Shown here piece by piece: positions 10,575 to 46,056 of a DNA stretch of 46,544 bases. The notes under the pieces are model-generated. The model was not told where the DNA came from and did no database searches. It saw only the letters and a list, made by a program, of their open reading frames with translations. The stretch comes from an uncultured Clostridia bacterium (GTDB taxonomy: Bacteria > Bacillota > Clostridia > Christensenellales > Borkfalkiaceae). Each line of letters begins with the position of its first letter. Positions within the stretch are counted from its first letter, which is position 1. The position numbers and the translations under genes were made by a program. Location of the stretch: positions 1-46,544 of the forward strand of contig CAMWNA010000003.1 in NCBI GenBank assembly GCA_947175515.1, read 5' to 3'.

Positions 10575-10691
10575 AACTCTCCGCTAAATTACTGTTTATC
10601 GTACATTCATTATAGCATATTCCTTTTGACAAAGCAAGAAAAAGAACGGATTGCGATTACTCACAAGCCGTTCTTTCTATTTGTTGCCGAA

Positions 10692-10758
10692 ATAAAAAGT
10701 AAATCCAAACCACTCACTTGTAACAAGTAAATAATTTGGATTATACTCTTTTGGTGCA
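10692..10758. repeat. 67-bp direct repeat, copy 1 (tRNA 3'-end/terminator-like att remnant)
   Basis: ATAAAAAGTAAATCCAAACCACTCACTTGTAACAAGTAAATAATTTGGATTATACTCTTTTGGTGCA; 63/67 identical by eye to 17786-17852. Confidence 0.85.
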
Positions 10759-10965: not shown

Positions 10966-13900
10966 ATGTCCGAATTTAAAACATATATTGAGCAACAGGC
11001 GGAGCTTGCAGAAAAATTATCAATTTGTGGTGGAATAAGTTTAATAAATATTAAAAAAGCAGTAACAGAGATGTTGTCGCTTATACATAGAAACGGTTTG
11101 TTTGAAGAATACACTTCGCATACGATAGCTCATGTAGATAGAATGCTAGATATTATTGAATGGTTAATACCAGAAGATACCAAGAAGATAATGACTCATG
11201 CAGAATATTTAATGTTAACACTTGCAGTATATTTTCATGATCTAGGGATGCTGGTTAGCAAAAAGGAATTTGAAGCTAGAGAGGATTCAAGTTATAAAAA
11301 ATTTAAAGAGAAAGTAAGTAAAGGGTCTTCTGAATACACAAGTTATACTAAATGTGACGATAAATTTCTTTATCAAGAATTTGTTAGAGAGAATCATGCA
11401 AAAAGAATTAGAGCTTGGATTGAAGGTAAAAATGTTATTGATTTGGGGAACGCTGAAGAACAATGCTCCATTATAAAAGATTTACTATCTAATCTTGATA
11501 ACAAATTTAGATCTGATTTAGCTATGATTTGTGAGAGCCATCATAAAGATGACATTGATGATTTTAAGAAATATAAAATAGACTCTTGTTATGGTAGTGA
11601 TAAAAACGAAAAAGCTAATTTGAATTATGTAGCTATAATATTAAGGTGCGCAGATTTACTTCATATCACAAAAGATAGAACTCCATCTATTTCACGAAGA
11701 ATAATCAATGTTTCTAATCCTATAAGTGTTTTAGAGTGGGAAAAGCAACAAGCTGTTAAGGCTGTAAGACCGAAAAAAAATAGGAATGAAGAGGGGAATA
11801 TAGATAACACTGTTGATAAAGATACTATAGAGATTACTGCTTATTTCGATGGTGCTGAAACGGCAGAAGCTTATTTTGGGCTATCATCTTATTTGCAATA
11901 TACACAAAAAGAGTTGCAAAAATGTAATTCTATTTCTATTCATGCACAGAAGTCTGAAGGTGCTGATGGATATTTATTTCCATGGCGAAAAATCGATGAT
12001 TCGGAAATTACTGCTGTTGGGTTTGAAACAAAAAAATTGCAATTTACATTAGCTCAGGAAAATATTTTACAACTTTTGGTTGGACATACATTATATAACG
12101 ATTCCTCTGTAGTTGTTCGTGAAATAACACAAAATGCGATTGATGCAGTAAAATTACAAAATCAAATTGAGCGCAATAAAAGTAGATCCATTACTGACGG
12201 GCAAATTATAGTGAATTGGGATAAAGATAAAAGGTTATTGAGCTTTACAGATAATGGAACAGGGATGACAATAAGCGAGATTGAAAACTATCTTCTTACT
12301 GTCGGGGCATCAAAATATCGAGATGAAACTTTTATAAAAGAATTTCCTAATTTTAATTCAATAAGCCGGTTTGGAATTGGTATTTTGACTTGTTTTATGG
12401 TTGCTGATGATGTGGATATAATTACAAATTCTGAGGAAGAGACTCAAGCTAATATGATTAGCTTGAGAAAAGTTAATGGCAATTATCTATTAAAAAAAAT
12501 AGATAAGGGCAATGTGGTTAAAAACATACAGAAGCATGGGACAAGAATAGAGCTTCATATACGTAATAAAATTGAAATGGACAAATTAGAATCCGATTTA
12601 AGAAAGTGGATTGTTGTACCTGAAATTCCGGTATTCTTATCATTTGATGAAAAGAAATTAATTAGGATTGGCTATGATAAATTAAGTGATGTAATTATAG
12701 ATTATTTTAAACGTTTAAATAAGAAATTTGATAATATAAATTATAAGATTTTTGAGAAAACCCAAGGTGATGTATCAATTGCATGTGCATTAAGATATAA
12801 TAAATATTTATCTGATTGGAGTTTAATGCCAATCGATAGAGATGCGTTTTTTGAAGATGAATACCCTATAGGAACTTGTGTTGAGGGAATTCGAGTAGAG
12901 TTTACCACGCCTGGATACAGAGGAGAAACAATATTTGCTATTGCTAATATTAAGAATAGCAAATTTAAAACAAATGTTGCAAGGTCTGCATTAGAATTTG
13001 ATATCAATAATCAAATATTAAATGATATTTATTCTTGTTATAAAGATTATATTCAAGAGCAGATTGATAATTTGGAAAAAAATAATTTTTCTAAGTCTTG
13101 GGCGTTAGAGGAAGGAAATTATTTAATGATGCCTTTATTTGACTCTAGATATAATAATCAGGAATGTAGACCTATTAATATAAGCAGTTTAATTAAAAGT
13201 TTAGGAGAGTTAAAATGCCTCATATTAGAGAATGCAGGGAAAAGGGAATTTGTTGCAGCTTCAGAAGTGCATAAGCTGGATGAATTTAATATTGTTGAGT
13301 GTAAAATGGCTTATGCTATCGAGTCACTGTTTAAAGAAATAAAGAGTGAAGCGACATTAGAAAGTATAATTAATGTTGTTTGCATAGAAGATAATTTTTT
13401 GAAAGGCATTAAAAATGTAATTTGTAACTATGATCATAGTAATATTTTACATCGTTATGCTTTGAGCGGTAAAGCGGTATCTTCTATATTTGTAAATCAA
13501 ACTCATCGTAGAATTCATTTGACTTTTTCAAATAGTGCCGATATGTGGGAAAAATTTAATTTGTCATATGAATTTAATAAATATTTATATATTCCTAAAA
13601 AAGAATTTTTTATAAAAGGGCTCGATGATGAAATAGGAGTTGATTCGGCTAGTGGAATATATTTAAGAAGTGATTCTGGTTTTTGTGCTTATATTAAAGA
13701 GTCAATTTACGAATTAAAAAATAGTGTTAAAGATAATAAGTATTTAATTGATAGTTTTCTATCTACTTTATTTAGTTCTAGAATTTTGGAAAAAGTTTAC
13801 GATAAAGATTTGGATTTTGATTACACTGATATTTTTGATGAAAGATTTTCATATAGGAGAAATGATTCCTTATCGCAATTATGGTCAAAAATTGATATGG

Positions 13901-13980
13901 AAAAATTCAAATCGGAAATTTTGACAAAAAATCTTTCATTGTTTTCTATTAGCAACTGGTCAAGGAGAAATGATGAATAA
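10966..13980 (+). CDS. HD-domain plus Hsp90-like (GHKL) ATPase protein, putative conflict/defence protein
   Basis: 1004 aa; HTIAHVDRMLDIIEWL...YFHDLGML HD motifs; REITQNAIDAV, FTDNGTGM and SRFGIGILTCFMVAD ATPase motifs; AAGGAGGAATTATG start. Confidence 0.8.
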   Translation: MSEFKTYIEQQAELAEKLSICGGISLINIKKAVTEMLSLIHRNGLFEEYTSHTIAHVDRMLDIIEWLIPEDTKKIMTHAEYLMLTLAVYFHDLGMLVSKKEFEAREDSSYKKFKEKVSKGSSEYTSYTKCDDKFLYQEFVRENHAKRIRAWIEGKNVIDLGNAEEQCSIIKDLLSNLDNKFRSDLAMICESHHKDDIDDFKKYKIDSCYGSDKNEKANLNYVAIILRCADLLHITKDRTPSISRRIINVSNPISVLEWEKQQAVKAVRPKKNRNEEGNIDNTVDKDTIEITAYFDGAETAEAYFGLSSYLQYTQKELQKCNSISIHAQKSEGADGYLFPWRKIDDSEITAVGFETKKLQFTLAQENILQLLVGHTLYNDSSVVVREITQNAIDAVKLQNQIERNKSRSITDGQIIVNWDKDKRLLSFTDNGTGMTISEIENYLLTVGASKYRDETFIKEFPNFNSISRFGIGILTCFMVADDVDIITNSEEETQANMISLRKVNGNYLLKKIDKGNVVKNIQKHGTRIELHIRNKIEMDKLESDLRKWIVVPEIPVFLSFDEKKLIRIGYDKLSDVIIDYFKRLNKKFDNINYKIFEKTQGDVSIACALRYNKYLSDWSLMPIDRDAFFEDEYPIGTCVEGIRVEFTTPGYRGETIFAIANIKNSKFKTNVARSALEFDINNQILNDIYSCYKDYIQEQIDNLEKNNFSKSWALEEGNYLMMPLFDSRYNNQECRPINISSLIKSLGELKCLILENAGKREFVAASEVHKLDEFNIVECKMAYAIESLFKEIKSEATLESIINVVCIEDNFLKGIKNVICNYDHSNILHRYALSGKAVSSIFVNQTHRRIHLTFSNSADMWEKFNLSYEFNKYLYIPKKEFFIKGLDDEIGVDSASGIYLRSDSGFCAYIKESIYELKNSVKDNKYLIDSFLSTLFSSRILEKVYDKDLDFDYTDIFDERFSYRRNDSLSQLWSKIDMEKFKSEILTKNLSLFSISNWSRRNDE

Positions 13981-14795: not shown

Positions 14796-17123
14796 CTATA
14801 TACGGTTAAAAATAGAATCTACTTCATCTAATTCAGTTTTTTTATCAAGACTTTTTTCATCATCATAAAAATCATAGTCAGAATAGTTTGATAGATATGC
14901 ATCTACTGCATCCGATGCGCCATTTACCGATATTGGAATATCGTATAGAAAATCATCTGATATTATTATATCATTAGGTAAAAGGCGCAGTTGGTTTTCT
15001 ACATACTCTGTCGCTAATTCAATTATTCTATCTTGAAGTCGCTCAACTGCAGAATTCTCATCAAAATATTCTCCATCAAAAGAGTACGCACCTTCTATAC
15101 AAGGACCGATGTCCACAATAAAATCTGATATGTCGACATCCTCGAAATATACTTCTATAGCATCTTTGATTTCTTCAGTTGCTATTTCAATAAAAATTTT
15201 TCTGTCTTTAAGATTTATAATTTTTTCTTCTATAATATCAACTAAAGCAATAACGTCGTCAAATTCCAATGTGGATAACATTTCATGTATGCCGTTCTGT
15301 TCTATTAAAAATTCATTTATTCCGTAAAATTCATAAAGCTTATCGTTAAATAACTCTCTAATTATAATGTTTAATGGCATCTTTAGTATTTGTTTGATTG
15401 CGAGGCCGTCTGGATTCTTTAGGTATGAAAATATAATATCTTTGTAACGGAGATCACAAATTTTCCCTTTTGCTATGCAATACACCATGAGTGCGTGCTT
15501 TTGGCTAGTGCTTTCAAAAAACAATTTGTCCAACTTATGAGTGGTTAATAGAATAATAGCTTCTTTATAAAATTCATCCGATGTTAAAACACGCTGTAAT
15601 TGAGTTATATAAAGTGAATTTTTTATTATTGTTTGTCTTTCAATTACATTCTCTTTTAGTCTTCCTTCTATATAATCGTTGATGGAAGGATTGAGTACAG
15701 ATATTAATTGAGAACCTTTTTTATCAATAATTTTTATAAAGCTGTCAGTTAATCTAATCATTGAGGCCTCAAATTGATTTATAGTAAGGTCGATGTCTGT
15801 TTCATTGGTAATGGCATTATTAAAGCACTCAAGTAATAATTTTTTATCGACTTCTTTATCTGAAATAGAGAAGAGAGTGGATAGGAAAATTCTATCCGTT
15901 TTCTGCAGTTTTCTTTCGTACTCATCTTTCCATAGCTGTTTAGGATTATTAAGCTGTGAAATGATGTATTTAAAATAATCACTCTCACGGGTGTTTTTAT
16001 ATCTATTTGGATTGCATACGAACTCGATTAGTCTTGGATTATAATTGGAATGTTCTATTATTTTAAGATAATTCTTATCTCTTTTTATTTCTTTTAAGTA
16101 ATTTGGTTGTGAGTTATTGAAATATAGATGATTATAAAATATCTTTGCCTTTTCAACAAGTGTCATGGCGTTCATATCAATTATGAATACCTTATATTCA
16201 CCATTCTCTAAACTTTGGATAAGTTCAGGCTTTTGCTCTTTTGCTTCTTGAAATATAGTGATTCGGGAATTTAGTACAAGGAGTTTATTTTTAGACAAGT
16301 TTACATACTTGATTAGTGATAATAATTCTTCATTTTGACTGCTTTTCATTTCAAAGTAAGCTTGTCCAAAACAATCATCAACCAAAATAATTTCTTTTGT
16401 ATCAGGGGTGCGAGATAATGATTTTTTTAGTTCTTTCAAATCTGTGCTGTTAGTTGTGTATCGTACTTTGAATTCTTTTGTGGCATAGTAAAGAATTAAC
16501 ATTTTAGAAGTAATTGTTTTTCCTACGCCGGGATTTCCAGTAATAAATAATGTTTTATTATGCGAGAGACAATCTAAACATTTATCAAATACTTTTGTTT
16601 TGACAAAGAATTTTTTATCGTTATCTATATTTGATAATAGAGATTCGCAATCAATAAATGTATCATTATTACTTAGCTTTTCTAAAATCCCTATTGAATC
16701 TAACCAAAGTTTGTAATGCTTGGTTAAAATATCGTTATTCTCAGGTTTTTGTAAGAAGTCATCGATTTCAGTTAATGTTACAATATTTTTGTCTGATTCC
16801 ATAAAGTCAGCAAAAAGCATATAAATTTCTTTAACTTTTTTAGGTGAAAGTTCTTTTGAGCAACATATGTAATACTGTTTAGGACGAAGTATTTGTACTT
16901 TCTTTAATTCATTTTTTAATGACGAAATGAGTGTCTCAGTGGAGGAGTTAATGTAATGCTTAACCTGAATTACTATACTATCATTGCTCAGAGTATCAAC
17001 TAAATCAATTCCACCATCTTTTCCTCTTGCGAATCTACGTAAAGAGGTTTTGAGAATTTTTTGCATAATATCCTGACATAGGTATTCAAATTCAACATCA
17101 TTTAAATTTGAGTAGTTTAACAT
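14796..17123 (-). CDS. Mrr-like nuclease domain + STAND-type P-loop NTPase, putative antiphage effector
   Basis: Start re-assigned to MLNYSNLNDVEFEYLCQDIMQ after GGAGACACAAATG on the minus strand; GGIDLVDTLSNDSIVIQVKHY nuclease core; FITGNPGVGKTITSK Walker A; IILVDDCFG Walker B. Confidence 0.78.
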   Translation of the reverse strand: MLNYSNLNDVEFEYLCQDIMQKILKTSLRRFARGKDGGIDLVDTLSNDSIVIQVKHYINSSTETLISSLKNELKKVQILRPKQYYICCSKELSPKKVKEIYMLFADFMESDKNIVTLTEIDDFLQKPENNDILTKHYKLWLDSIGILEKLSNNDTFIDCESLLSNIDNDKKFFVKTKVFDKCLDCLSHNKTLFITGNPGVGKTITSKMLILYYATKEFKVRYTTNSTDLKELKKSLSRTPDTKEIILVDDCFGQAYFEMKSSQNEELLSLIKYVNLSKNKLLVLNSRITIFQEAKEQKPELIQSLENGEYKVFIIDMNAMTLVEKAKIFYNHLYFNNSQPNYLKEIKRDKNYLKIIEHSNYNPRLIEFVCNPNRYKNTRESDYFKYIISQLNNPKQLWKDEYERKLQKTDRIFLSTLFSISDKEVDKKLLLECFNNAITNETDIDLTINQFEASMIRLTDSFIKIIDKKGSQLISVLNPSINDYIEGRLKENVIERQTIIKNSLYITQLQRVLTSDEFYKEAIILLTTHKLDKLFFESTSQKHALMVYCIAKGKICDLRYKDIIFSYLKNPDGLAIKQILKMPLNIIIRELFNDKLYEFYGINEFLIEQNGIHEMLSTLEFDDVIALVDIIEEKIINLKDRKIFIEIATEEIKDAIEVYFEDVDISDFIVDIGPCIEGAYSFDGEYFDENSAVERLQDRIIELATEYVENQLRLLPNDIIISDDFLYDIPISVNGASDAVDAYLSNYSDYDFYDDEKSLDKKTELDEVDSIFNRI

Positions 17124-17142
17124 TTGTGTCTCCAAATTTAGC

Positions 17143-17508
17143 TTAGCTATTAGTTTCTCTGAGTAATTTAAGTACGGCTTCTTTAAGTTTAGCGTTAGCG
17201 GCAGAGGACGGATCGAAACACATCTCAATAAATTCTTGCATTTGCTCGTTGTCTTGCCAAACCTTCGGCTGGTAATCGTACAATTTGCCCTGAGGATTAT
17301 CTGTTCTTCCGAAAATATAATCAAGCGATACGTCGAAATAGTTCGCATACCATAAGAGAACTTCATTTGATACTTCAGAAATGCCGTTCTCATACCTATT
17401 AAGCGCAGATTGAGAAATGTTTCCATTTAAACTACATAATTTCATTTGGGACAGTTTGACACCTTGTCTTAAATCTCTTAATCTCTGTCCAATTATCTTA
17501 TTATCCAT
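17143..17508 (-). CDS. XRE-family HTH regulator
   Basis: 121 aa; LRDLRQGVKLSQMKLCSLNGNISQSALNRYENG; directly upstream of and co-directional with the STAND gene. Confidence 0.85.
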   Translation of the reverse strand: MDNKIIGQRLRDLRQGVKLSQMKLCSLNGNISQSALNRYENGISEVSNEVLLWYANYFDVSLDYIFGRTDNPQGKLYDYQPKVWQDNEQMQEFIEMCFDPSSAANAKLKEAVLKLLRETNS

Positions 17509-17785
17509 ATAATCACTCCTTGCAAAATATTTTAATCATTATCTGGGTAAATGTCAAGTCTTTATGTGCATAAAAAATTAAGATTTCAAAAAGAATCAGC
17601 CATTGAATAATTTTAAACTTTCGACAAAACTTCCTATAAAAAGACAGTTCACTGCCCGTTTATGGGAATTGAACGCATTGTAGCTATATGTAATTTATGA
17701 TATAATTCATACTGAACCACTATATTTAACGAGTGGTAATATATATAGTTTGGGGCGGTAAAGCCGCCTTGCCTTAATTTCAGAT

Positions 17786-17852
17786 ATAAAAAGTAAATCC
17801 GAACCACTCACTTGTTACAAGTAAACAATTCGGATTATACTCTTTTGGTGCA
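17786..17852. repeat. 67-bp direct repeat, copy 2
   Basis: ATAAAAAGTAAATCCGAACCACTCACTTGTTACAAGTAAACAATTCGGATTATACTCTTTTGGTGCA. Confidence 0.85.
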
Positions 17853-18061: not shown

Positions 18062-19282
18062 TTAATAGTCCAGCTTCTCAGCTTCCTTCAGAAAGAACTC
18101 ATCAGGTAGGTCTGCATAAGCTTTGCGGAGCTTATCAATATTATGTCCCATCCAGAACGCACGAGCAATGTTTGCTACATGGTACGTTTCACACCGCGTG
18201 TCGAACGTCGTTCTTAAATCGTATAATTTGTGAGTGGGACAGAAAGCGACCAATTTCTCACGTAAATATTTCTTATTCGGAAAGTATAGTTCCGATGTTC
18301 CTTTCAATATCTTTTTCAATCTCGGTATGATAGGTATGTATTTGTAAATGACCTTCTTTGAGTGCTGCTTTCTGCATTCGGCTTTGATGAAATCGCCTTC
18401 AATAGTGGCGGTGCGATATTCGCAAGGCCGAATTCCAGTATATAACGCTACGGCTATTGGTATAAGATATTTCGGGTTATCCTTTAAACCCTCAATCAAA
18501 GTGTTCTCTTCTTCAATAGTTAGCGCTACGCCATGTTCGCTTTCGTAACTTTCGACAATTACAAGGCGGCACGGATTCCGAGGCAATAAGCCTTGGTCGA
18601 CCGCATTTGTAAATATACAGCTTAACAACGATTTTAATTCTTTTGCAGTTTTCATTTTATCGTTGTCAACGTAATCGTCGATGTAGTCTTGAATCATATC
18701 GCTATCGATTTCCTTCAACGGTAATGATTTAAAATAAGGCTGCAAGTGATTTTTGTAGCGGTACATGTCATTTGTAAAGGTAGATTCTTTTACCAGCCGT
18801 ATGCGGTATTTATCAAAGTAGAAGGTTGCGAACTCGTGAAAGGTTGCGGGAACCTTAGGAAAGTCTTTGCGCTTATCTGCGATATTGACTTCGATTATAA
18901 ATTTTGATTTTGCTTTTTCAAGGTCATTGCTTGATACATAAATATTGTATCCGTCGCGCCGATAGCGCAACTCATAATTTGTATTACGTTTCCCGCTTGC
19001 TCGTTTGTATGCGTGTACTAAACATCCGGCTAAACGGAAAACCTTTCTAAATCTTGTCGGCATTTGTGAAATCTCCTTTTTAGTGAATTTCACAAAACCA
19101 TAGGTTACGGTTACATTTTGAATTTCGGGCCCTTTATTAAGCTCAAATTCATTGACTGCCTCTCGCTGCATGGCAGCCAGTTCTTCGGAAACCTTTTCGA
19201 TTTCCTCCTTGTTGTGTTCTCTGTCTAAGCTCAGCATCATAAGCTTTGAGCTGAGATAGAGCATTTTTTCCGATGTGTTCAT
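18062..19282 (-). CDS. int: Tyrosine recombinase/integrase
   Basis: Start chosen at MNTSEKMLYLSS behind AAGGAGG (minus strand); SAM-like domain, ALYTGIRPCEYR, YDLRTTFDTRCE, FWMGHNIDKLRKAYADL. Confidence 0.85.
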   Translation of the reverse strand: MNTSEKMLYLSSKLMMLSLDREHNKEEIEKVSEELAAMQREAVNEFELNKGPEIQNVTVTYGFVKFTKKEISQMPTRFRKVFRLAGCLVHAYKRASGKRNTNYELRYRRDGYNIYVSSNDLEKAKSKFIIEVNIADKRKDFPKVPATFHEFATFYFDKYRIRLVKESTFTNDMYRYKNHLQPYFKSLPLKEIDSDMIQDYIDDYVDNDKMKTAKELKSLLSCIFTNAVDQGLLPRNPCRLVIVESYESEHGVALTIEEENTLIEGLKDNPKYLIPIAVALYTGIRPCEYRTATIEGDFIKAECRKQHSKKVIYKYIPIIPRLKKILKGTSELYFPNKKYLREKLVAFCPTHKLYDLRTTFDTRCETYHVANIARAFWMGHNIDKLRKAYADLPDEFFLKEAEKLDY

Positions 19283-19390
19283 TCCAATGAACCTCCTTAA
19301 AGTTTTCACCGTAATGGTGTGCTTTAAGGTTAAGGGAGAACACAAAGAAAAAATCAATTGTTTTTGAGGGGTTATTTTTAATTACTTTTT

Positions 19391-20168: not shown

Positions 20169-21197
20169 ATGGCAAACGAAATTGCAAAGCTTAAACCCTT
20201 GCAAGAGCCTGGAGAGGTAATAGAATCCGAAACTGATGCGAAGTACGAAGTATACAAAGCTGACGGCTTATACGAGTATTCTTTGCAGGCGAACGGCAAG
20301 CCAAATAAAGCGCATGCAAGAATAACCTACACACACGGTGATATTTATGACGGCAACCTGAAGCACGGCAAGTATTCTGGGCTTGGCAGTTACCAATGGA
20401 AAGACGGTGGATTTTATGAAGGTAATTTCTCCGGCGGAAAGTTAAACGGCACAGGCAAATATGCAGCACCAAACGGCGACGTCTATGAAGGCAACTTTAA
20501 AAACAATAAGTATAACGGCGAAGGTAAGTACACTTGGGAAGATGGAAGTTCGTTTGAGGGTACCTTTAAAAACGGCCAAATGCAGAGCGGAAGATACATT
20601 GATGCGGACGGTAATGTTTATGATTGTAAGTTTACATACAAGCTCAACGGTGAACGCAAGAACGGCAGCATCAGATTAGTTCGTTTTGCAGAGAAAGAAC
20701 CGCCTAAAAACGAGAACACAGAAAAAAAAGAAACCAAGGAAAAGAAGGAAAATAAGGTCTCAAAGGAAGCCAAGGAAACTTCGAAAGATGCGGATAAAGA
20801 CGCTCCTAAAAATGATAAAGCCGAAACGAAGAAAGCCGCAGTGTCGCGCGTTAATAAAAACGGTTTAACAAGTAAAGATACAAAGCTCATTACCATAATT
20901 CGAAATTCTAAACGCGGCGCTGAATTTAAAAATCTGTATACCGGCGCATCAGGAAAAAGCGAAAGAGCTGAAAAAGATTTAATAGCCATTTTGAATTTTT
21001 TTACTAATTCAGATGCAGCACAGATACAGCGCATATTTAAGTCTTCGAAAATCTACGACGCATCAAAGGGCGACGAACGTCTGACTGATATGGTAACTGG
21101 AATTATAAAGCGCAGCAATGATTTTGTACATAGCACAAAATCAGCCGCAACGGGCCGTCAGAGCTCGGCCAGCGCTGTTAACGGTGCGGCGAGATAA
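20169..21197 (+). CDS. MORN-repeat protein with a C-terminal helical domain shared with the giant primase-like protein
   Basis: 342 aa; repeated YEGNFxxxxxNGxGKYxxxxG; lysine/glutamate-rich linker; C-terminal IIRNSKRGAEFKNLYTG...LNFFTNSDAAQIQRI. Confidence 0.8.
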   Translation: MANEIAKLKPLQEPGEVIESETDAKYEVYKADGLYEYSLQANGKPNKAHARITYTHGDIYDGNLKHGKYSGLGSYQWKDGGFYEGNFSGGKLNGTGKYAAPNGDVYEGNFKNNKYNGEGKYTWEDGSSFEGTFKNGQMQSGRYIDADGNVYDCKFTYKLNGERKNGSIRLVRFAEKEPPKNENTEKKETKEKKENKVSKEAKETSKDADKDAPKNDKAETKKAAVSRVNKNGLTSKDTKLITIIRNSKRGAEFKNLYTGASGKSERAEKDLIAILNFFTNSDAAQIQRIFKSSKIYDASKGDERLTDMVTGIIKRSNDFVHSTKSAATGRQSSASAVNGAAR

Positions 21198-23303: not shown

Positions 23304-23690
23304 ATGAACAAAGTATTTCTGATAGGAAACTTAACCAAAGATCCCGAATTGACGGAAACGTCTGCCGGTGTTGCATTATGCCGCTTTTCTATAGCGGTGA
23401 ACAGAAGCTACGTCGGCGCTAATAACGAACGTAAGACCGATTTCTTCAACTGTGTTGCCTGGCGCGGCCTTGGCGAGAACATCGCCAAATACACTTCGAA
23501 GGGCGACAAGGTGGCGGTTAACGGCTCGTTCGAGCAGGACAACTACGAAGACGCACAAGGAGTTAAGCGCACTTCATACACACTTGTTGTGCGTGATATA
23601 GAGTTTTTGACATCGCATAATTCACAATCAGACAAGGATGTAGATAAAAAGCTACAACCTGTAACTGAAGATACTGATATTCCTTTCTAA
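23304..23690 (+). CDS. ssb: Single-stranded DNA-binding protein
   Basis: 128 aa; MNKVFLIGNLTKDPELTETSAGVALCRFSIAVNR; acidic tail DTDIPF. Confidence 0.95.
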   Translation: MNKVFLIGNLTKDPELTETSAGVALCRFSIAVNRSYVGANNERKTDFFNCVAWRGLGENIAKYTSKGDKVAVNGSFEQDNYEDAQGVKRTSYTLVVRDIEFLTSHNSQSDKDVDKKLQPVTEDTDIPF

Positions 23691-24761: not shown

Positions 24762-27700
24762 ATGGAAGATAATAAAGAATTGATAACGAGCCAGTCAGAA
24801 CACGAAAAGACTTCGGAAGAAAAGCCGGCAATAAAAAACTCCGCAACGTTTGCGGAGCAGGTGGATGCCGTTCTGAGCGGCGCGGATATGGAGAGTTCGC
24901 ATTTAGAACTGCTTAAGGTAACGCCTCCGCTTCTTCGAATGGTGGGCGTTCCTAACTTGCCTATCCTAATGACTGCACGCCACGTTAAGACTATAACGCA
25001 GGAAAGCGGAAGCGATTCCGCCAATTATCACGGTTTAGGGACAGAGATTATAAAGAAGCTGCCTGAACTGATATCAGACCCCGTGATGATTATGGATAGT
25101 TTAACACAAAATGACAGTATAGTCATTGTTACGCAAACAGTAGATAAACAATATCGCCCCGTAATCGGAGCTATAAAGCTGGATGGTATAGGTCGCCAAA
25201 AATCCGAAATGATAAGCGCGAATATTTTAACGAGTGCTTATGGACGTAATAATTTCCAGTCGTTCATCGCGCGCAATATTGAGCAAGGGACAGTTCTCTA
25301 TGCGGATAAAGAGAAAAGCCAAGCCTTGTCAGTGAACCCCGGGATACAATTTCCCGACGTTATGGCAAGCCTCAGCTTCAATACTATTATACGCAAAACT
25401 AAGGCTTTTGTCAAGAGCAAGGAAGAAAAAATCAAAGAAAATAAACCCAGTGAGAAAGAAGAGAACACAGAAAAGAAGGAGGAGAAAATGAAATTGTCTG
25501 ACCGCATTAAACGTTTCTTTGGAAGGACGAAGAGCGAGTATAAGGACGTTGCGCCGCAAATTCTTTCGAATGAAGAGTTTGCCGCGCAAAGGGAGCGTAT
25601 AGGTAAAGCCAGAGAAAAAGCTATGCTGATAGCTTCCGAAAGCGGACAACCATATGTAACGATAATGGAAAGCGATTCGGTTAAATTCAAGCCTGGCGAC
25701 GTTCTGTCGTTAGTTGAAGCTGAGAAAAGCTTTACGGAAGAAAACAAAGAGGTTAAAGCTCTTGATGCCGGCGACTATAAAACACTGTTCACAATAGATT
25801 CCGTGTATAAGGGCAAAATGAATAGTGCAGACTGTGTATACCGTATTGGTGCAGAGAACGGCGGAATTGCGGAACAGCTTGCGGAAACGGCAAATTCAAA
25901 TCATGACGTCAATTTGCTCAATTATTCAAAGTACTTGCAAAAGCATCTTGAGCTCGAAGGTATGGTAGATAAAGCCATTGCGGCCAAGCTGCCCTTACAA
26001 AAGCAATACGACGTGCAAGGTTACGCCTTATTCGTAGGCAATGACTTGAACGCATCGCAGAATCCGGAGAGCTTTGAATTTCCGCCGCTTGAAATAGAAC
26101 ACAAAGAAAAAATAATCAATACTGAAAATCTGCCGCACCGTGCGTTTGCCGACGGTCCGATACCGCAGTCGGAGCAAACGTCGAGTAATTCTGCTGAGCG
26201 CCGAGCAACAGATTTTCACGACAAAGTTTTTGGCGTGCGTGAGGAAATGGTAAAAAGCCTTATCAGATACATAGAACAAAGCCCTAAGCAATGGGAAGCT
26301 GGTTGGAATAATATTGCCGGCACGGCGCCTGAAAACGGTAAAACAGGTACACCGTATCGCGGTTTAAACTTGCTTTACTTAACGTTTACGGCGATGCAAA
26401 AAGGGTATACCGACCCTCGCTGGGTAACGTTTAATCAGGCCAAAGAACTCGGAGCGAGTGTAAAGAAGGGTGAGAAGTCTTCGCCCATTATATTCTACGA
26501 ATTATACGACCGAAACACGAAAAAGTCTTACGACAGCAATACGACTAAAAATATGACCGACGAACAGAAGGATGCGTATATGAAGGAGAATGTTTACGCT
26601 GTCCTTAAATATTCGAACGTCTTTAATGCTTCACAATGTCATAACTTCCCAGAGCGTGACACCGCGTCGATGCAGATGAAGGAAGAAGAACGTGCAAAGC
26701 AGAACGCATTAATCGAATCTATTATTTCGAATAGTGCAGCGCCCGTTCTCCATGATGGGGGCAACGAAGCTTTCTATTCGCCCATGCAGGATAAAATACA
26801 TTTGCCGCCGCTCGAAGCTTTCAATACGATGCAGGATTATTATGCAACCGCGTTGCATGAAATTGCTCACTCCACGGGCCATGAAAGCCGCTTAAACCGT
26901 GATTTAAGCGGTAGCAGGCATTCGTCGGCATACGCAAAGGAAGAACTCCGCGCTGAGCTTGCTTGTGTATTTATGCAGGTGGAGCAGGGTTTAAAGCTTG
27001 ACGGTAAACACTTCTCAAACCATGCAGCATATCTGAACAGTTGGCTTAACCAAGTTAAGGATGACCCCCAGATATTTTATGCGGCCGCGCGAGATGCGGA
27101 GAAAATCTCGGACTACGTTGCCGAGAACTATCTGCATGCAGCGCAGACTGCTGAGCTCGAAGGCGAAGCAGTTCACTCGAATACAGCCGCAGTAGTTCAG
27201 GGAAACACAGAAAAAAAAGAAGCTTTAAATGCGTCAAAAATCAATTTAACTGAAAAGCGTTTGAAAGACTATGCAGATATATTGCGTAGGAACGATTTAG
27301 AGGTCGGTAATACCGCTCAGTCGGACGAATATTACATAAACCAAGCCCGAGAACAAATAAAAGCTTATGAGCAGACAGACGAATATAGAGGAGCAGTGAG
27401 AGCAGATTATCCGCGCGACTTCGAAGACGAGCTCACCGAAACGTTGCTTGACGAGGCTGAGGCTCACGTCGGGACCTTGAATGGAGAACACAAAGAAGAA
27501 AAAAGCTTTGAGGATACAGTGCAAGAGCTTGCAACATCGGAGGGATATAGCTTTACCGAAAATGCGGAACTTGTGCATCAGTATTCAAAGAATATTTTTG
27601 AAACTGAGCTCAAAGCGCGCGATGTTTTCTCTGACAATAATATGCAAAAACAGCCAGCGTTTTCGAAATTTTCAACTGCACAAATAGAACACATTGCTAA

Positions 27701-30578
27701 AAATTATATGTATTACAACAACACCTATGCTTTCAACTTGGCAAAAATAATGAAAGCAGAGCGTGAAAAATATGAATATCAGGCTTTAAAAGCCATTTTG
27801 CAACAAGGTAATGACGCGCCCGAGTATATCCGAATTGATGGGTATAATTATTTGTTCAGAACAGAAGATTTGACCCAGAAATACGGCGGAAAAATTGAGA
27901 ACGGGCAAATAGTTGTTACACCTGAGCTTGAAAATTCATTTTTTAAACTTAATGAAAAATACAACGAACAGCAAGGAGAACACAAAGAAAAAATGAATTC
28001 AGTGCCTCATTATACAATTGATTTCAAATTAAATTGTTCAAATGAAATGCTTTTAAGCAATGAATTAAAGCAATTAGGCTTTAAAGTTGATAGAGATGCT
28101 TATAATCGAAACGAGCAAAGAGATGGTACAGCACTCGAAAATCGAATAGACCGTTGGGTGGACGAAATTAATTATGTGGGAGCCGAGGGCAAGTCAATTG
28201 AAGGTTGGTATGGAAAAACTTTTAACGGAATTATGTTAGAGTCAACCGATATTACAGGCTTTACGACGTCTGGCTTAAGTCTTAAAGAAGTGCAAGCCGT
28301 AGCCGATGCGGTGCAGAGCTTTGGCGTTAACGTTACAGTAAAAGAGATTCCGTCGCAGCATCGTATTGTTCCAGAACAGAAGCAAGAGACTTCGAACAAC
28401 GGCGCCGCGGCGAAAGCTCCACTGGTTGTCAATTTGTTTGCAGGACCGGGCGCAGGAAAAACCACGGCCGCACTGGAGCTTACGGCAGCGCTGAAGAAAG
28501 AGGGGTACAACGTAGAGTATGTTTCCGAGTTCGCCAAGGAGCTCGTGCTCGAGGGCAGAACTGAAGAGCTGAAGGACCAGGAGTTTGTAACGAACGAGCA
28601 GTACCATAGAATAGACCGTTTACGTAACTCAGGGGTTGAGATTATCGTAACGGATTCCCCAGTACTCCTCGGCAAAGTATACGGCGAAGGGAAGAACAGC
28701 GCGGAGTACGATAAGCAAATACTCGATTATCACAACAGCTTCGAGAACTTTAACCTTATGGTTAAGCGCGGCGAAACTTTCCAAGCAGAAGGGCGAGTGC
28801 ATAATCTTGAGCAATCAAAAGAGCTCGATACAAAGATAACGTCTATGTTACGCAGTAACCAAATATTTTACGGTAACTATCACCACGGTGATATAGACAA
28901 AACTATCGACCGTATAAATGCAACGTACGCTCGCTTGTACGGAGAAAAGCAAGCGGATAATAAAAATGTATCCGTAAATACGTTCTGCACTGATTTTGGC
29001 GGTGAATATCTGTATTTCCGTGTCAATGATGGACTATCGATTGAGGATGTTTGTAAAGGTTACGCCGAGGACCCTGAAGATGGCTTTGGTTATAACTTTG
29101 GGCAAGAGATATCAGAAAGCCAGTACAATGAAATCAGAAATACAAGCAAAGGCTTTAATATCGATTTTCTTGACGATATAAATGCTTTTACGATAACTCA
29201 GGATGGAAATGTTTTAGAGAGCGGCTATTTGTACGAGGATTTAGTTTTGAAGTATCAAGAACCTGAAGCGCAAGAAGAATCAGCCGAAAAGACCGTTGGA
29301 GAGGAGCTAACGAATAAAACCACGTGGAGCAAGATAAATCTTCCAGACGGCGCTGTCGGAAACGAGTACGGCAAAACCACTCTTGTTAAAATGCCGCAGA
29401 GTGGCGAATATGCTCATTTTGGTGTTTTCGTTTCTACACAATATCTCAGGCAGAATTCAAAGACAGGCAAGTGGCAGCTTAACGTCGGCGATAAATTCAC
29501 GTACCGCTTAACAAACGACGGGCGGCAGGTCGAACTGACGGGCCAAGAACTCAAGGATAGCTTTGCCGGGGTGCTTATCGGAAAAACTCCCGAGCGTGTG
29601 GCGCCGAGCCGTAAAAATCTGAGAGTGCTCGACAATCTTGAAAAGAACGTTCCAAAAGAACTTCGTGTGCATGCCAATTGGTGTGTTTACCGCACCTATA
29701 AGGAAACGGATAAGGAAAAGAAGGGTAAAGTCATCAAGTCGGCAGTAACGGGAGAGGGGGCAAGCCCTAAGAACTCGGCAGACTGGACCGACTTCGATAC
29801 AGCGATGAAATATGCACGTGAAAACAACTTCGAAGGCCTTGCGTTCGTGTTGGAACAAAATAGCGGCATAACGTGCATCGATTTGGATAAGTGCATCAAG
29901 AACGCGGAGACGGGGGAAATGAAGGAACGCGCGACCAAGCTAATTGAAGAGCTGAAAGGCACGTACATGGAGCGCAGCACGTCTGGGAACGGCGTACATA
30001 TTTTCATTAAGGACGACATCCTTAAAGGCGGCAAGTATAAAGACTCCTCGGTAAGTGAGGAGAAGGGCGACCTCGAAGTCTTCGATAATCAGCGCATTAT
30101 ATCGATGACCGGTGATATGTTTTCTGAAACGAACACCTTGACGAGAGCCGGCAGCAGTGCAACCGTTTATCTTCGTCAGGAGCTCGGCGAAAAACAGCAG
30201 ACTCACCGTTCACCATCTTCCAACGTAAGGACCGGCTATAAAGCCGGCAGCGACCGAGAGGTAGTAGAGCGCATCCGCCGTAGCAAGCGCGCAGGCGACT
30301 TCGAGGATCTTTATACCGGTCACGGTATTACTGGGAACGCGTCGATTGATGACATGAAGCTTGCTAATATTCTCGCTTTCTTCACTAACGGTGATGCCGC
30401 TCAGTGCATGAGAATTATGCGTGAGGCGTCAACGTACCGTTCTGACAAACCCGAATCTTATTATAATCACACCATATCCAAGGCAATCGACACATTAACT
30501 ATCCGCCCATCGTACGGCGCCGCGCAGGGCGCTTCAGCAAGCAATAAGCGGACAGCAGGAAACGGTGCAGCGCAGTAA
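24762..30578 (+). CDS. Giant multidomain ICE protein: ArdC-like antirestriction/zincin + P-loop NTPase + PrimPol-like domain + C-terminal helical domain
   Basis: 1938 aa; TGTPYRGLNLLYL and HEIAHSTGHESRL (ArdC/zincin); NLFAGPGAGKTTAALEL; HANWCVYR...ITCIDLDKC...YMERSTSGNGVHIF (PrimPol-like); C-terminal RSKRAGDFEDLYTG...LAFFTNGDAAQ. Confidence 0.82.
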   Translation: MEDNKELITSQSEHEKTSEEKPAIKNSATFAEQVDAVLSGADMESSHLELLKVTPPLLRMVGVPNLPILMTARHVKTITQESGSDSANYHGLGTEIIKKLPELISDPVMIMDSLTQNDSIVIVTQTVDKQYRPVIGAIKLDGIGRQKSEMISANILTSAYGRNNFQSFIARNIEQGTVLYADKEKSQALSVNPGIQFPDVMASLSFNTIIRKTKAFVKSKEEKIKENKPSEKEENTEKKEEKMKLSDRIKRFFGRTKSEYKDVAPQILSNEEFAAQRERIGKAREKAMLIASESGQPYVTIMESDSVKFKPGDVLSLVEAEKSFTEENKEVKALDAGDYKTLFTIDSVYKGKMNSADCVYRIGAENGGIAEQLAETANSNHDVNLLNYSKYLQKHLELEGMVDKAIAAKLPLQKQYDVQGYALFVGNDLNASQNPESFEFPPLEIEHKEKIINTENLPHRAFADGPIPQSEQTSSNSAERRATDFHDKVFGVREEMVKSLIRYIEQSPKQWEAGWNNIAGTAPENGKTGTPYRGLNLLYLTFTAMQKGYTDPRWVTFNQAKELGASVKKGEKSSPIIFYELYDRNTKKSYDSNTTKNMTDEQKDAYMKENVYAVLKYSNVFNASQCHNFPERDTASMQMKEEERAKQNALIESIISNSAAPVLHDGGNEAFYSPMQDKIHLPPLEAFNTMQDYYATALHEIAHSTGHESRLNRDLSGSRHSSAYAKEELRAELACVFMQVEQGLKLDGKHFSNHAAYLNSWLNQVKDDPQIFYAAARDAEKISDYVAENYLHAAQTAELEGEAVHSNTAAVVQGNTEKKEALNASKINLTEKRLKDYADILRRNDLEVGNTAQSDEYYINQAREQIKAYEQTDEYRGAVRADYPRDFEDELTETLLDEAEAHVGTLNGEHKEEKSFEDTVQELATSEGYSFTENAELVHQYSKNIFETELKARDVFSDNNMQKQPAFSKFSTAQIEHIAKNYMYYNNTYAFNLAKIMKAEREKYEYQALKAILQQGNDAPEYIRIDGYNYLFRTEDLTQKYGGKIENGQIVVTPELENSFFKLNEKYNEQQGEHKEKMNSVPHYTIDFKLNCSNEMLLSNELKQLGFKVDRDAYNRNEQRDGTALENRIDRWVDEINYVGAEGKSIEGWYGKTFNGIMLESTDITGFTTSGLSLKEVQAVADAVQSFGVNVTVKEIPSQHRIVPEQKQETSNNGAAAKAPLVVNLFAGPGAGKTTAALELTAALKKEGYNVEYVSEFAKELVLEGRTEELKDQEFVTNEQYHRIDRLRNSGVEIIVTDSPVLLGKVYGEGKNSAEYDKQILDYHNSFENFNLMVKRGETFQAEGRVHNLEQSKELDTKITSMLRSNQIFYGNYHHGDIDKTIDRINATYARLYGEKQADNKNVSVNTFCTDFGGEYLYFRVNDGLSIEDVCKGYAEDPEDGFGYNFGQEISESQYNEIRNTSKGFNIDFLDDINAFTITQDGNVLESGYLYEDLVLKYQEPEAQEESAEKTVGEELTNKTTWSKINLPDGAVGNEYGKTTLVKMPQSGEYAHFGVFVSTQYLRQNSKTGKWQLNVGDKFTYRLTNDGRQVELTGQELKDSFAGVLIGKTPERVAPSRKNLRVLDNLEKNVPKELRVHANWCVYRTYKETDKEKKGKVIKSAVTGEGASPKNSADWTDFDTAMKYARENNFEGLAFVLEQNSGITCIDLDKCIKNAETGEMKERATKLIEELKGTYMERSTSGNGVHIFIKDDILKGGKYKDSSVSEEKGDLEVFDNQRIISMTGDMFSETNTLTRAGSSATVYLRQELGEKQQTHRSPSSNVRTGYKAGSDREVVERIRRSKRAGDFEDLYTGHGITGNASIDDMKLANILAFFTNGDAAQCMRIMREASTYRSDKPESYYNHTISKAIDTLTIRPSYGAAQGASASNKRTAGNGAAQ

Positions 30579-30971: not shown

Positions 30972-31460
30972 GTGAAAAATAAACAAGAGTTCGAAAAAGT
31001 CAAAAACGAATTCAAAATTCGTCTCTATGACACGGAAGTAATCAAATCAATTGCCGAGCTGATGCAGACGGGCAAGTTCGAAAGCTATAACGACTTGCTT
31101 GGCTATGCAATCAGTTTCGGCATTGAGAAGATTTATCTGGAGTTCGGGAAAAAGCGGGCGCTCACCAATCCGTTCGAAGTTGACATGCCGATGGAAGAGC
31201 GATTAAACCTTATCGACAGGAAACTTGCAGAAGCTCGGATTATGCAGGAGGATATGTTTATTCTGTCAAACGGCCTTGAAATTTTAATTTCGACCGTTTA
31301 CAACACGCTGCGAGCCGAAGCTGCAGGCGAAGAAGTTACGCCGGAACTCATAGATAGCGGTTTCTTCTCAACGCTACCGGAATTCTACCGCGTTATCAAA
31401 GATACCATGATTGAGCGCTCAAAAAAGAAAACACAGAAGGAAAAGAAGAAAAATGTCTAA
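30972..31460 (+). CDS. MobC-like mobilization accessory protein
   Basis: 162 aa; GTG start behind GGAG; RHH-like N-terminus; overlaps the relaxase start. Confidence 0.6.
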   Translation: MKNKQEFEKVKNEFKIRLYDTEVIKSIAELMQTGKFESYNDLLGYAISFGIEKIYLEFGKKRALTNPFEVDMPMEERLNLIDRKLAEARIMQEDMFILSNGLEILISTVYNTLRAEAAGEEVTPELIDSGFFSTLPEFYRVIKDTMIERSKKKTQKEKKKNV

Positions 31461-32787
31461 GGTAGTATTTAACGTCAGTTACACGAACGCGCAGCCGCCG
31501 GTGAACTTTACGGGCAAAGCACGTGCGGATTACATTGCGCAACGCAAGTTCTATAATTTGACGGCGGATTACAATTACTTTGAGTATTCACTTAACGGCC
31601 AAAAAGTCGTTAAGAACGCTAATGCGGAGCATTATTTTACCCGTGAAGGCACGAACACCGGGCTTTTTAACATGGACGGCGTTATATCCGAAGAGAAAAA
31701 GGCCGAGTTAAAAAGTCTGTTAAAAGATACGCAAAGCCCTATCTGGCACGGTTTCATCAGCTTCGATGAGGAAACCAGCCTCGGCTTCCAGACGCAGGAG
31801 AACTGCATAAAGTTTCTGCGCCAGACTTTCGGCGAGTTTTTAAGGCGCGGCGGTTTCAGAAAAAATAACGTAGAGCTTTACTGTTCGTTGCATGACGATA
31901 CCGATAATCGCCATATTCATTTCGCTTTCTTTGAAAGAGAGCCTCTGCACTGTAATAAAAACGGTGTGGCCGGGCAGTTTAGGCAAGGTTTTATTCAGAA
32001 CAAGATAATTGATAATTATCTCGTATCAGCGAATATGCACCTTTCTGAACACGGCGCCGAATATTACACCGCACGTGACGAGGCAGTAAGCGAGCTTAAC
32101 AAAATCCGCGAAAATCATGCAGTTGGCGGCACGTTCTTCACCACCGACCGCGGCCGTAATCTCGAGCTTAACCTTGCCTTTGACAAGCTTATTGCAAAAT
32201 TGCCTAAGACGGGCCGTTTACAGTACAACGCAAAAGAGATGGCAGAGCTTCGGACTGAAATCGACAAGCTTGCGGCGCTGCTCATAAAGTCGGATAAGCG
32301 TGCGGAAGCTGCGCATCTCAAGATGCTTAAACAGTTTGCGCGTGTAGAAAACGAGGTCCGCGAGCTGGCCTTGGATAACAAGCTCGCCTATATGAACGAC
32401 CGCCGAATGACGAAGGAAGAGCTGCAAACCGTAATGAACGAAGATACACGCAATCAGAAGATGCCCGTTAAATATCTTGACATGCAGAACGTTGACTATT
32501 TCGAACGGCTGAAAGCGGATTATGCGGCAAGGCTCGGAAATATCGTTCTTGGTATTTGTAAGGACATAAAACGTACTGACAAAATGTCCGTACACCGTAA
32601 GGCTTACGTGAACGATATTCGCAGAAAAGTCGAGGCCAAGCATAAACGCATAAAGCGCGGCGACTTTTTCCGAACGGCGAGGGAAGTTCTTGCGGCCGTT
32701 TGCTCAACCGATAGCGCGAACTTCCTCAAATCGTTCAAGCAAATCGAAGCCGAAATTGCTTTCGAGCAAGTTGATGGCAGAATCTGA
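31453..32787 (+). CDS. MobP-like relaxase
   Basis: Start re-assigned to MSKVVFNVSYTNAQPP; IWHGFISFDEE and DDTDNRHIHFAFFE metal-binding motif. Confidence 0.8.
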   Translation: MSKVVFNVSYTNAQPPVNFTGKARADYIAQRKFYNLTADYNYFEYSLNGQKVVKNANAEHYFTREGTNTGLFNMDGVISEEKKAELKSLLKDTQSPIWHGFISFDEETSLGFQTQENCIKFLRQTFGEFLRRGGFRKNNVELYCSLHDDTDNRHIHFAFFEREPLHCNKNGVAGQFRQGFIQNKIIDNYLVSANMHLSEHGAEYYTARDEAVSELNKIRENHAVGGTFFTTDRGRNLELNLAFDKLIAKLPKTGRLQYNAKEMAELRTEIDKLAALLIKSDKRAEAAHLKMLKQFARVENEVRELALDNKLAYMNDRRMTKEELQTVMNEDTRNQKMPVKYLDMQNVDYFERLKADYAARLGNIVLGICKDIKRTDKMSVHRKAYVNDIRRKVEAKHKRIKRGDFFRTAREVLAAVCSTDSANFLKSFKQIEAEIAFEQVDGRI

Positions 32788-32801: not shown

Positions 32802-35075
32802 ATGAAGAAAAAGGACGTTTTCAACCGTTGGAAAGAAAAGAAGCTTTCCACGAAAATAATCATCGGCATAGTTGTCGTAATTCTTTTATACGTTGCGCCG
32901 TTATTAGTGTTTGCCGTTGCAGGCTCGTTGCTTGCCAGAATACCTTTTGCCGAAATATTCGGTAAAATCTGGCTTTACGGCTTATGGGGCGCATCAGCTA
33001 TCGGAGTTACGTTCTATCTGTTATTCGAATATAGAACGCTTGGTTCGCGGCGAGTAAAAAAAGTCAACGTCGACCTGGAAGATTCGCACTTTATGTCTCT
33101 GCGCGAGATGTCGCATAATGCAGGATTTACCGTTACGAAGTTTTCAGAGCTCGGAACGGTGAAGGACGGTATCCCGATTATTATCCAGCGCGAAAAACAT
33201 AAAGTGGATATGGACGTTGTGTTGCATGACCCGATACACGCTATGCTCCTTGCAACGACCGGCACTGGTAAAACCGTTTCGTACATATCGCCAAGTATCG
33301 AAGTACTTTGCCGTACGAAAAGTAAACCGTGCATTGTCGTAACGGACCCGAAAGGTGAGCTTTACCGACGTCACGCAAACTCATTGAAGAAAAACGGGTA
33401 CAACGTTCACGTAATCGATTTGCGCGATACTTATCATTCTACGCTCTGGAACCCGTTTAACGACGTATGGCGCAAGACGGATGAAATGACAATGCGCGTC
33501 GAACAAATAAAAGGCAAGTATTACCTCAACGGTATTGAATACCTTACGCGCGAGGATGCAGAGGCCGCGCGGCGTCAATGCGCTATAAAGCTCAAGGATG
33601 AGATTTACGTTGATATTCAGGACCTTATAAACACGATGTGCCCCGTTGATTCAGGCGAAAGCAAGTCATGGCAGCAGGGTGCCAGAGATTTGCTTGTCGG
33701 TCTTGCGTTAAGATTTTGGGAAGACGTGCGAGACGGCTATATGCCGCGTGAGAAATTTAACCTATACAATCTATGGTGGAACTTAACCGAATACGCAAAA
33801 GGCGAATGTGAACTTCTGAAGGAATATATAGGTGAAATCGCGGATGATGTTTCTCGAGCGGAAGGCATGGCGAATACCGTGCTCGTCAGTCAGGATAGGA
33901 CGCTATCGTCATATCTTGGTTCGGTCAACCAATATCTGCACTGGATGGCGGACGGCGGTATTGCCCAGCTCACAAGCGGAAACGAAATTGAATTTATGGA
34001 CTGGGATGAAAGCCCCAATGCACTTTTTATAAAAGTCCCTGATGACAAGGACAATAGGCACACGCTCGTCTCGTTGATGCTTATGCAGCTGTATAAAGCG
34101 CTTGTTGAAAAAGCGACGCGCAACGAGTTAATGCATAAGACTAACGACCGTGAATTGCTGAGGGCAAGCTATTTCCTTATGGATGAGTTCGGCAATCTTC
34201 CGAAAATACCAAACTTGGAAAAAACGATTACAATTGCGCGAAGCTGCCGGATTTATTTAGTGCCCGTTCTGCAGAGCTTAGTTCAGCTTGAAAACGTTTA
34301 CGGAAAAACGCCCGGCGAGCAAATCCGCGACAACTGCAATATAAGAATTTTTATGGGAACGAACGACGAGCAAACACGTCACGTTATATCGGAAGCTTGC
34401 GGCAAAAAGAAATCTAAGCAGGTCAGTTATAACGAAGAAAAAGGGATGTCGGTCAGTACAAGCGCGCAGAGCATACCACTCATACACGAGTCGGAGCTCG
34501 GCCGCTTGAATGACCCGAAAGGCGGAATTATAGGTAATGCGGTCGTTTTGGTTTCAGGCAATTATCCTATAATCGGTAGAACGACGCCCGTCTTCAAAGC
34601 GCAGGATATATTCTGCCTCGAAGAGTCTTCAGAACCGCAGAATGATTTTATGGAATTCGACGAAAAATCAAACCGATACGATATTGCCTTTACGGTGTGG
34701 TTTGAAAAAGAGATGCGGAGGCTTGAAGAAGATGGCGACGAGGCAGAAAATTTTACGGCGTCAGTGCAGGAAGAAGTTATTACAACTGAAATGCAAAATT
34801 TTGTAATTGCCAAGATACAAGAGAAAATAAAGCAGCATCTTGACAAGCTTAAAGAAAAAATTTCGCTCGAAGATTGCACGCGCCTTGCCGCCGCGGATAC
34901 GCGAGGAAAGATAATGATTTTGGACGAGCTCGCTGATGCGGCCACGGCGAAGGGCGACCGTTTTCTCGCAGCGGAAATTGAAAAGGTGCGCAGCTTCCTA
35001 ATACATAGCGGCGAACAAATTTCAGACCTTGAAGCTTCGGCTCAATCAATAAATTATCAAGGAGTAGATTTATGA
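32802..35075 (+). CDS. virD4: VirD4/TraG-type coupling protein
   Basis: 757 aa; N-terminal TMs, LLATTGTGKTVSYI, VVTDPKGELYR, FLMDEFGNLPKIPNLEK. Confidence 0.95.
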   Translation: MKKKDVFNRWKEKKLSTKIIIGIVVVILLYVAPLLVFAVAGSLLARIPFAEIFGKIWLYGLWGASAIGVTFYLLFEYRTLGSRRVKKVNVDLEDSHFMSLREMSHNAGFTVTKFSELGTVKDGIPIIIQREKHKVDMDVVLHDPIHAMLLATTGTGKTVSYISPSIEVLCRTKSKPCIVVTDPKGELYRRHANSLKKNGYNVHVIDLRDTYHSTLWNPFNDVWRKTDEMTMRVEQIKGKYYLNGIEYLTREDAEAARRQCAIKLKDEIYVDIQDLINTMCPVDSGESKSWQQGARDLLVGLALRFWEDVRDGYMPREKFNLYNLWWNLTEYAKGECELLKEYIGEIADDVSRAEGMANTVLVSQDRTLSSYLGSVNQYLHWMADGGIAQLTSGNEIEFMDWDESPNALFIKVPDDKDNRHTLVSLMLMQLYKALVEKATRNELMHKTNDRELLRASYFLMDEFGNLPKIPNLEKTITIARSCRIYLVPVLQSLVQLENVYGKTPGEQIRDNCNIRIFMGTNDEQTRHVISEACGKKKSKQVSYNEEKGMSVSTSAQSIPLIHESELGRLNDPKGGIIGNAVVLVSGNYPIIGRTTPVFKAQDIFCLEESSEPQNDFMEFDEKSNRYDIAFTVWFEKEMRRLEEDGDEAENFTASVQEEVITTEMQNFVIAKIQEKIKQHLDKLKEKISLEDCTRLAAADTRGKIMILDELADAATAKGDRFLAAEIEKVRSFLIHSGEQISDLEASAQSINYQGVDL

Positions 35076-46008: not shown

Positions 46009-46056
46009 TTTAATCATTAATGAACAATAGAAAGACATTTGGAAAAAAAGTAAAAG

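Follow-up and report, generated by a model that had tools for sequence, protein, structure and literature searches.

The question raised by this locus is what a single protein of 1938 amino acids, in which modules of very different kinds follow one another, does for the DNA that encodes it. The gene lies at positions 24762-30578 of the window, by which we mean the whole stretch of 46,544 nucleotides analysed here, and forms one uninterrupted frame of 1938 codons on the forward strand, with an ATG start, GAGGACGG upstream of that ATG and no internal stop. Six Pfam families above cut-off place several domains of disparate activity in the one chain. An earlier note had claimed a single 1938-aa ORF with fused modules, and this is confirmed by the intact frame and by the repetition of the joins in relatives; the modules that it named were recovered, but its list was incomplete, the MuF_C domain at residues 86-187 and LPD25 at residues 294-380 having been overlooked. 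The gene and its modules are the following.

24762-30578, forward strand: polyvalent protein, 1938 aa (ORF and translation)
25017-25322, forward strand: MuF_C, residues 86-187 (Pfam PF18819, 2.7e-22; alignment; MuF-C assigned to PBECR in the literature)
25641-25901, forward strand: LPD25, residues 294-380 (Pfam PF18840, 1.3e-8)
26235-26624, forward strand: ArdC-N ssDNA-binding domain, residues 492-621 (Pfam PF08401, ArdcN, 7.3e-30; PDB 6i89)
26712-27092, forward strand: MPTase-PolyVal zincin metallopeptidase, residues 651-777 (Pfam PF18818, 1.2e-36)
28038-28361, forward strand: recurrent module l5, residues 1093-1200 (common to L107 and L109; no Pfam match)
28395-28955, forward strand: P-loop kinase module, residues 1212-1398 (Pfam AAA_28; PHROG 2107; AF2 model; VIA-align match to NadR)
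29289-29597, forward strand: recurrent module l7, residues 1510-1612, usually immediately before PrimPol (alignment; no Pfam match)
29610-30311, forward strand: PrimPol catalytic domain, residues about 1617-1850 (PDB 7ola and 6a9w; PHROG 1829; motif alignment)
30342-30497, forward strand: NrS-1-type helix-bundle domain (HBD), residues 1861-1912 (Pfam PF22763, 3.5e-7; HMMER alignment)
30516-30575, forward strand: low-complexity basic C-terminal tail, last 20 residues

Residues 491-800 align with nearly the whole of the solved R388 ArdC (PDB 6i89; phmmer, E 3.4e-42, about 300 aa), and together with the two Pfam matches at 492-621 and 651-777 this bears out the ArdC-like region with a HEIAH zincin that had been proposed from the sequence. 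The zincin residues H699-E700-xx-H703, the glutamate helix (E727/E728) and Y757 are all present, and the protein is predicted to combine, as ArdC does, an ArdC-N fold with an HExxH zincin and its glutamate helix. HExxHxTGH and the glutamate helix are common to this protein and to the ArdC of R388/pSa (PDB 6i89, 6sna), but ArdC stands alone with some 300 aa, and its counterpart here is a single module within a chain of 1938 aa. Because the metalloprotease activity of R388 ArdC is dispensable for antirestriction (PMC7213743), the HEIAH motif should not be taken as the antirestriction activity; the idea that one protein protects and replicates the entering strand agrees with the published reading of ArdC-N and PrimPol in Firmicutes conjugative elements (PMC5512222). 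R388 ardC is needed in the recipient and not in the donor (PMC7213743), and since it acts when expressed there, co-transfer is not required for that protein.

The primase-polymerase-like region claimed for the C-terminal part is substantiated by matches of residues 1617-1920 to solved primases (7ola, E 2e-21; NrS-1, 6a9w, E 6e-14) and by the AEP active-site motifs DxD, SGxGxH and LEV..R, which are intact in the alignment with relatives (D1707, D1709, S1741/H1746, E1772). The catalytic domain also matches PHROG 1829, and with DxD, SxH and an acidic third motif in place it is predicted to carry an AEP active site. In the HMMER alignment of the HBD, R1893 and Y1900 correspond to R249 and Y261 of NrS-1, and NrS-1 K251 has no aligned residue; the match to PF22763 and these two positions point to an HBD with template-recognition residues. 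Changing the equivalents of R1893 and Y1900 weakens priming in NrS-1 mutants. What had been called a helical C-terminus is indeed helical, but it is no separate module, being the NrS-1-type HBD (1861-1912) of the primase. The unit resembles the NrS-1 phage primase-polymerase (6a9w) and primase 7ola in its PrimPol and helix-bundle arrangement with the same motifs, and differs in that no helicase domain follows and the basic tail ends the chain.

A P-loop domain separate from the other modules had also been claimed, and the Walker A motif (GPGAGKT at 1228), an AAA_28 match above the Pfam cut-off (1225-1370, 3.5e-6), a family of 63 sequences and a confident fold all argue for it. The further statement that this module has no obvious role did not survive, given its kinase-type fold and its solo homologues in phages. 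DSP at 1298 and a GR lid at 1344 accompany the Walker A motif, PHROG 2107 ("thymidylate kinase") is matched, and across the family GxGK[ST], E...E..K, D-S-P, R and G-R are invariant or nearly so, residues that, judged from the fold, would fit an active small-molecule kinase. The AF2 model, with 62 viral homologues as alignment, reached a pLDDT of 94.4, and its best structural match was the NadR kinase domain (VIA-align Z 16.6, 175 residues, rmsd 3.3, 15% identity), below which stood thymidylate kinases (Z 14.4) and deoxycytidine kinase (13.6). NadR (6gyf, 1lw7) and thymidylate kinase (1e9d, 4s35) have the same fold and the same layout of a P-loop kinase, though identity is 10-16% in each case. 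The nicotinamide-riboside kinase of NadR usually comes with an adenylyltransferase domain, whereas the Pfam matches of the 1938-aa protein include no adenylyltransferase family and the module here lacks the NMN adenylyltransferase partner. The model points to a P-loop kinase fold of the NadR kind, and we regard the module as a candidate nucleoside/nucleotide-kinase-type module with a NadR/TMK-like fold.

Other identities considered for the P-loop were rejected. A RecA-like motor is contradicted by the nucleotide-kinase fold of the model, and the phmmer matches to recA PDB entries amount to 7-8 bits per copy, summed over engineered recA repeats. The zeta-toxin kinase family is mentioned by Iyer et al. 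2017 (PMC5512222), but no zeta family occurs in the Pfam matches of the 1938-aa protein or among those listed for the 63 members of the kinase family. The family is abundant in viral contigs, and in all 80 of the loci kept the kinase is a solo ORF of 165-273 codons. Some of these phage loci adjoin anaerobic ribonucleotide reductase, DHFR, guanylate kinase or nucleoside deoxyribosyltransferase, each such neighbour being a minority (7 of the 80 loci or fewer). At least five polyvalent proteins contain the kinase as a fused module, and it is also seen in a SNF2/methylase/YodL/LPD18 polyvalent protein of 3316 aa that belongs to the same class. Among viral contigs no relative of the ArdC, PrimPol or MuF_C modules was confirmed.

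At the other end of the protein, H90 and T157/S158 of MuF_C are kept in the alignment of four sequences, consistent with the MuF-C/PBECR RNase pattern of a His in the N-terminal helix and a Ser/Thr near the C-terminus, and the domain is predicted to adopt a BECR-type RNase fold; its single-sequence model had a pLDDT of 33. Stretches matching just the last 35-40 or so residues of the MuF_C region were seen in five genomes (G004:C12:13455-13571, G041:C7:59222-59326, G297, G307 and G072), at 57% and 77% identity where measured and in small or broken frames, and are perhaps remnants. In many proteins PrimPol is immediately preceded by module l7, which has a conserved MP..EY and is present in duplicate in giant proteins.

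The gene is part of an integrative conjugative element and stands upstream of its relaxase, VirD4 and VirB4, in the order integrase, ParA, SSB, replisome organiser, polyvalent gene, small ORF, MobL relaxase, VirD4 and VirB4. The genes that place it there are listed here.

18062-19357, reverse strand: tyrosine integrase of the element (Pfam integrase N-terminal domains)
30972-31460, forward strand: small ORF between the polyvalent gene and the relaxase (17 family members in the loci examined, including that of the window)
31411-32787, forward strand: MobL/MobP-type relaxase (Pfam PF18555, 7.5e-19; NCBIfam MobP3 below cut-off)
32802-35075, forward strand: VirD4-type coupling protein
42595-45237, forward strand: VirB4-type ATPase (NCBIfam NF045975, 1.2e-170)

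The SSB-like protein (23304-23690) was named from its sequence and, used as a query, matches proteins of other loci that Pfam assigns to SSB. In many relatives that we examined, homologues of the small ORF and of the relaxase are found next to polyvalent genes, and the relaxase and VirD4 neighbours are kept in several. An element with T4SS and relaxase genes is the setting of conjugative-type polyvalent proteins, and this is where the gene is found.

We consider it likely that the 1938-aa protein is a polyvalent establishment protein of this element; while the element establishes itself, the protein would most likely protect ssDNA, prime de novo and phosphorylate nucleotides locally. As we infer its activities, their timing, its delivery and the substrate of its kinase, the protein would either enter along with the DNA or be synthesised early in the recipient; ArdC-N would coat the incoming single strand and shield it against restriction, PrimPol with its HBD would lay primers on that strand and so render it double-stranded, and the NadR/TMK-like kinase would phosphorylate a nucleoside or nucleotide-type small molecule. 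The purpose of the latter would most simply be to raise the dNTP supply locally for priming, or else to repair a metabolite that host defence has depleted. The zincin would probably cut linkers and free the modules, and MuF-C is a candidate RNase effector. If so, the protein offers a concrete case in which to test how the conjugative elements of this group of bacteria get through their first minutes after entering a new host, and a formerly role-less P-loop is explained as a predicted small-molecule kinase common to phages.

Part of this is not new. Iyer et al. 2017 (PMC5512222) defined polyvalent proteins, reported PrimPol in conjugative elements of Firmicutes and Fusobacteria, listed PrimPol and LPD25 among the domains of ArdC-N-dominated conjugative-type proteins, proposed that such proteins protect and prime incoming ssDNA and predicted their delivery into the recipient with the DNA, so that the protect-and-replicate idea was in essence already published. 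The Tn1549-like polyvalent proteins described there are likewise large, lie beside T4SS genes and contain ArdC-N, zincin MPTase, PrimPol and LPD25, with MuF-C among the listed hub domains, but ArdC-N is an N-terminal "header" in them and internal here, where a NadR/TMK-like kinase module is added. The main text of that paper, outside which its full architecture list lies, has no term matching a NadR/TMK/AAA module. The newer points are the identity of the kinase, with its solo state in viral relatives and its fusion in polyvalent proteins, the mosaic build of the protein, whose module order is permuted elsewhere, and the tail pattern.

The structural ranking itself invites another explanation, namely that the kinase is a nicotinamide-riboside kinase restoring NAD+ in recipients with NAD-depleting defence, and that the protein is chiefly a counter-defence package. 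The top structural matches are all NadR (Z 15.1-16.6, that is 0.7-2.2 above the best thymidylate kinase), and phages are described in the literature as bearing NAD+ salvage genes, the NadR P-loop kinase domain included. Foldseek with the same model ranks thymidylate kinases first, however, and sequence profiles match the deoxynucleoside kinase 2jaq (E 9e-5) and not NadR among the PDB matches listed; with no fused adenylyltransferase domain in the Pfam matches either, we regard this explanation as rather unlikely. Work mainly in the donor, on replication or processing of the excised element and with no transfer of the protein, is suggested by the SSB, ParA and replisome-organiser genes just upstream in the same element, because of which the locus is also a replication cluster. 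Yet no role in the donor is obvious for ArdC-N or MuF-C, R388 ArdC is required on the recipient side (PMC7213743) and the passage of proteins through conjugative T4SSs is documented in the literature for F-plasmid SSB and others, and a donor role appears doubtful to us.

A fusion that arose by accident or is in decay, or else an artefact of assembly, would be in keeping with the ORF occurring once, a whole-genome search having found one full-length copy in a draft genome of 104 contigs. There is however no frameshift, the motifs are all intact and the joins between modules recur in independent genomes, and we therefore hold an artefact to be extremely improbable and rule out a two-gene assembly chimera. 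The joins seen again in relatives from other genomes are ArdC-zincin-P-loop-PrimPol (loci L058 and L060), MuF_C-ArdC-PrimPol (L030), ArdC-l6-l7-PrimPol (L029) and ArdC-LPD25-P-loop (L031). Listed by genome, the survey across the order shows ArdC-zincin-kinase-PrimPol fusions in G213 (1135 aa) and G338 (1205 aa), ArdC-zincin-LPD25-kinase lacking PrimPol in G038, a MuF_C-ArdC-zincin-PrimPol chain in G041 and a permuted chain, ArdC-zincin-MuF_C-l5-l7-PrimPol, in G266. A frame of 25,069 aa in relative G012 is masked sequence read as N and not real. The earlier note had asked whether relatives encode the modules separately: solo PrimPol, ArdC-zincin(-HBD) and kinase genes do exist, two solo PrimPols being present in the window's own genome, but so do fused relatives, and separate genes do not refute the fusion because a modular polyvalent protein predicts both.

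The 1938-aa protein is moreover a mosaic, since its nearest relative changes along its length: the kinase is 67% identical to that of L058, whose ArdC and PrimPol reach 37% and 35%, the MuF_C region is 57-58% identical to L030 and L109, and ArdC and PrimPol are both 61% identical to L029. This agrees with reports of module exchange in other polyvalent proteins. Relatives with PrimPol and no kinase (L030, L034, L107-L109) indicate that the kinase is not needed for priming. Other elements have two proteins for these functions, one of them ArdC-zincin-HBD and the other a chain of 3300-4200 aa with a PrimPol-HBD end. ArdC-zincin proteins with the primase HBD and no primase occur in L032, L033, L100-L106 and L042, often beside giant PrimPol-HBD proteins, so the HBD travels apart from its catalytic partner.

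Of the fused polyvalent, HBD or MuF_C proteins from these loci, 31 of 38 have a basic Gly/Ser/Asn/Lys-rich tail at their end; for other genes of 150 aa or more the figure is 10 of 359. The Fisher value of this contrast is no proper probability, the criterion having been picked after inspection and the proteins being related. Two SSB-domain fusions from such loci bear the tail and are counted within the 10. By the same criterion it was found in none of 13 further MuF_C or PrimPol/HBD proteins from loci with no detected conjugation gene. Two of 20 relaxases carry it, with identical C-termini, which rules it out as a general substrate signal of these systems. In other systems T4SS signals frequently lie at the C-terminus and are basic, and in Bartonella effectors a BID domain is paired with a charged tail; as a hypothesis, the basic tail may be a delivery signal. 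That HBD and tail together form a portable delivery tag for the conjugation machinery, marking otherwise unrelated proteins for co-transfer much as in the Bartonella effectors, with the kinase module travelling as part of the package, is a speculative idea that we think unlikely. The tagged set would then comprise polyvalent primases, ArdC-zincin-HBD proteins and a MORN protein; SSB fusions and a MuF-C protein would bear just the tail. If true, the basic low-complexity tail could be a sequence mark for recognising transferred establishment proteins.

The MORN protein (20169-21197) has 342 aa, its MORN repeats being fused to a degenerate PrimPol HBD from which the template-recognition Arg and Tyr are apparently lost; its tail ends in ...NGAAR, against ...NGAAQ in the 1938-aa protein. 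The usual tip of SSB is an acidic DIPF. It is retained in the SSB-like protein of the window, and in two SSB-domain proteins of conjugation loci (L058:2046-2762 and L115:1116-2117) a basic Gly/Asn/Lys end replaces it.

A 75-nt direct repeat (10684-10758 and 17778-17852, 91%), with an apparent tRNA 3' remnant from about 17850 abutting its second copy, suggests the left end of the element. The repeat pair flanks an island of 28-31% GC in which a gene for an HD-CE/GHKL ATPase (10966-13980) is followed by an nSTAND3-Mrr gene (14796-17426) matching PADLOC PDC-S73 (1e-120), and the bracketed segment resembles a defence island accreted beside the element at its attachment site. The inverted arms of the repeat (10702-10742 and 17796-17836) read AATCCAAA/TTTGGATT in one copy and AATCCGAA/TTCGGATT in the other, a paired difference, as if the recombination site were keeping its palindrome. 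At the opposite end of the window GC falls to 28% (45920-46544) and an NTPase-like gene with a P-loop (GEWGSGKSS) starts and runs off the contig end, possibly as further cargo or as the right flank of the element.
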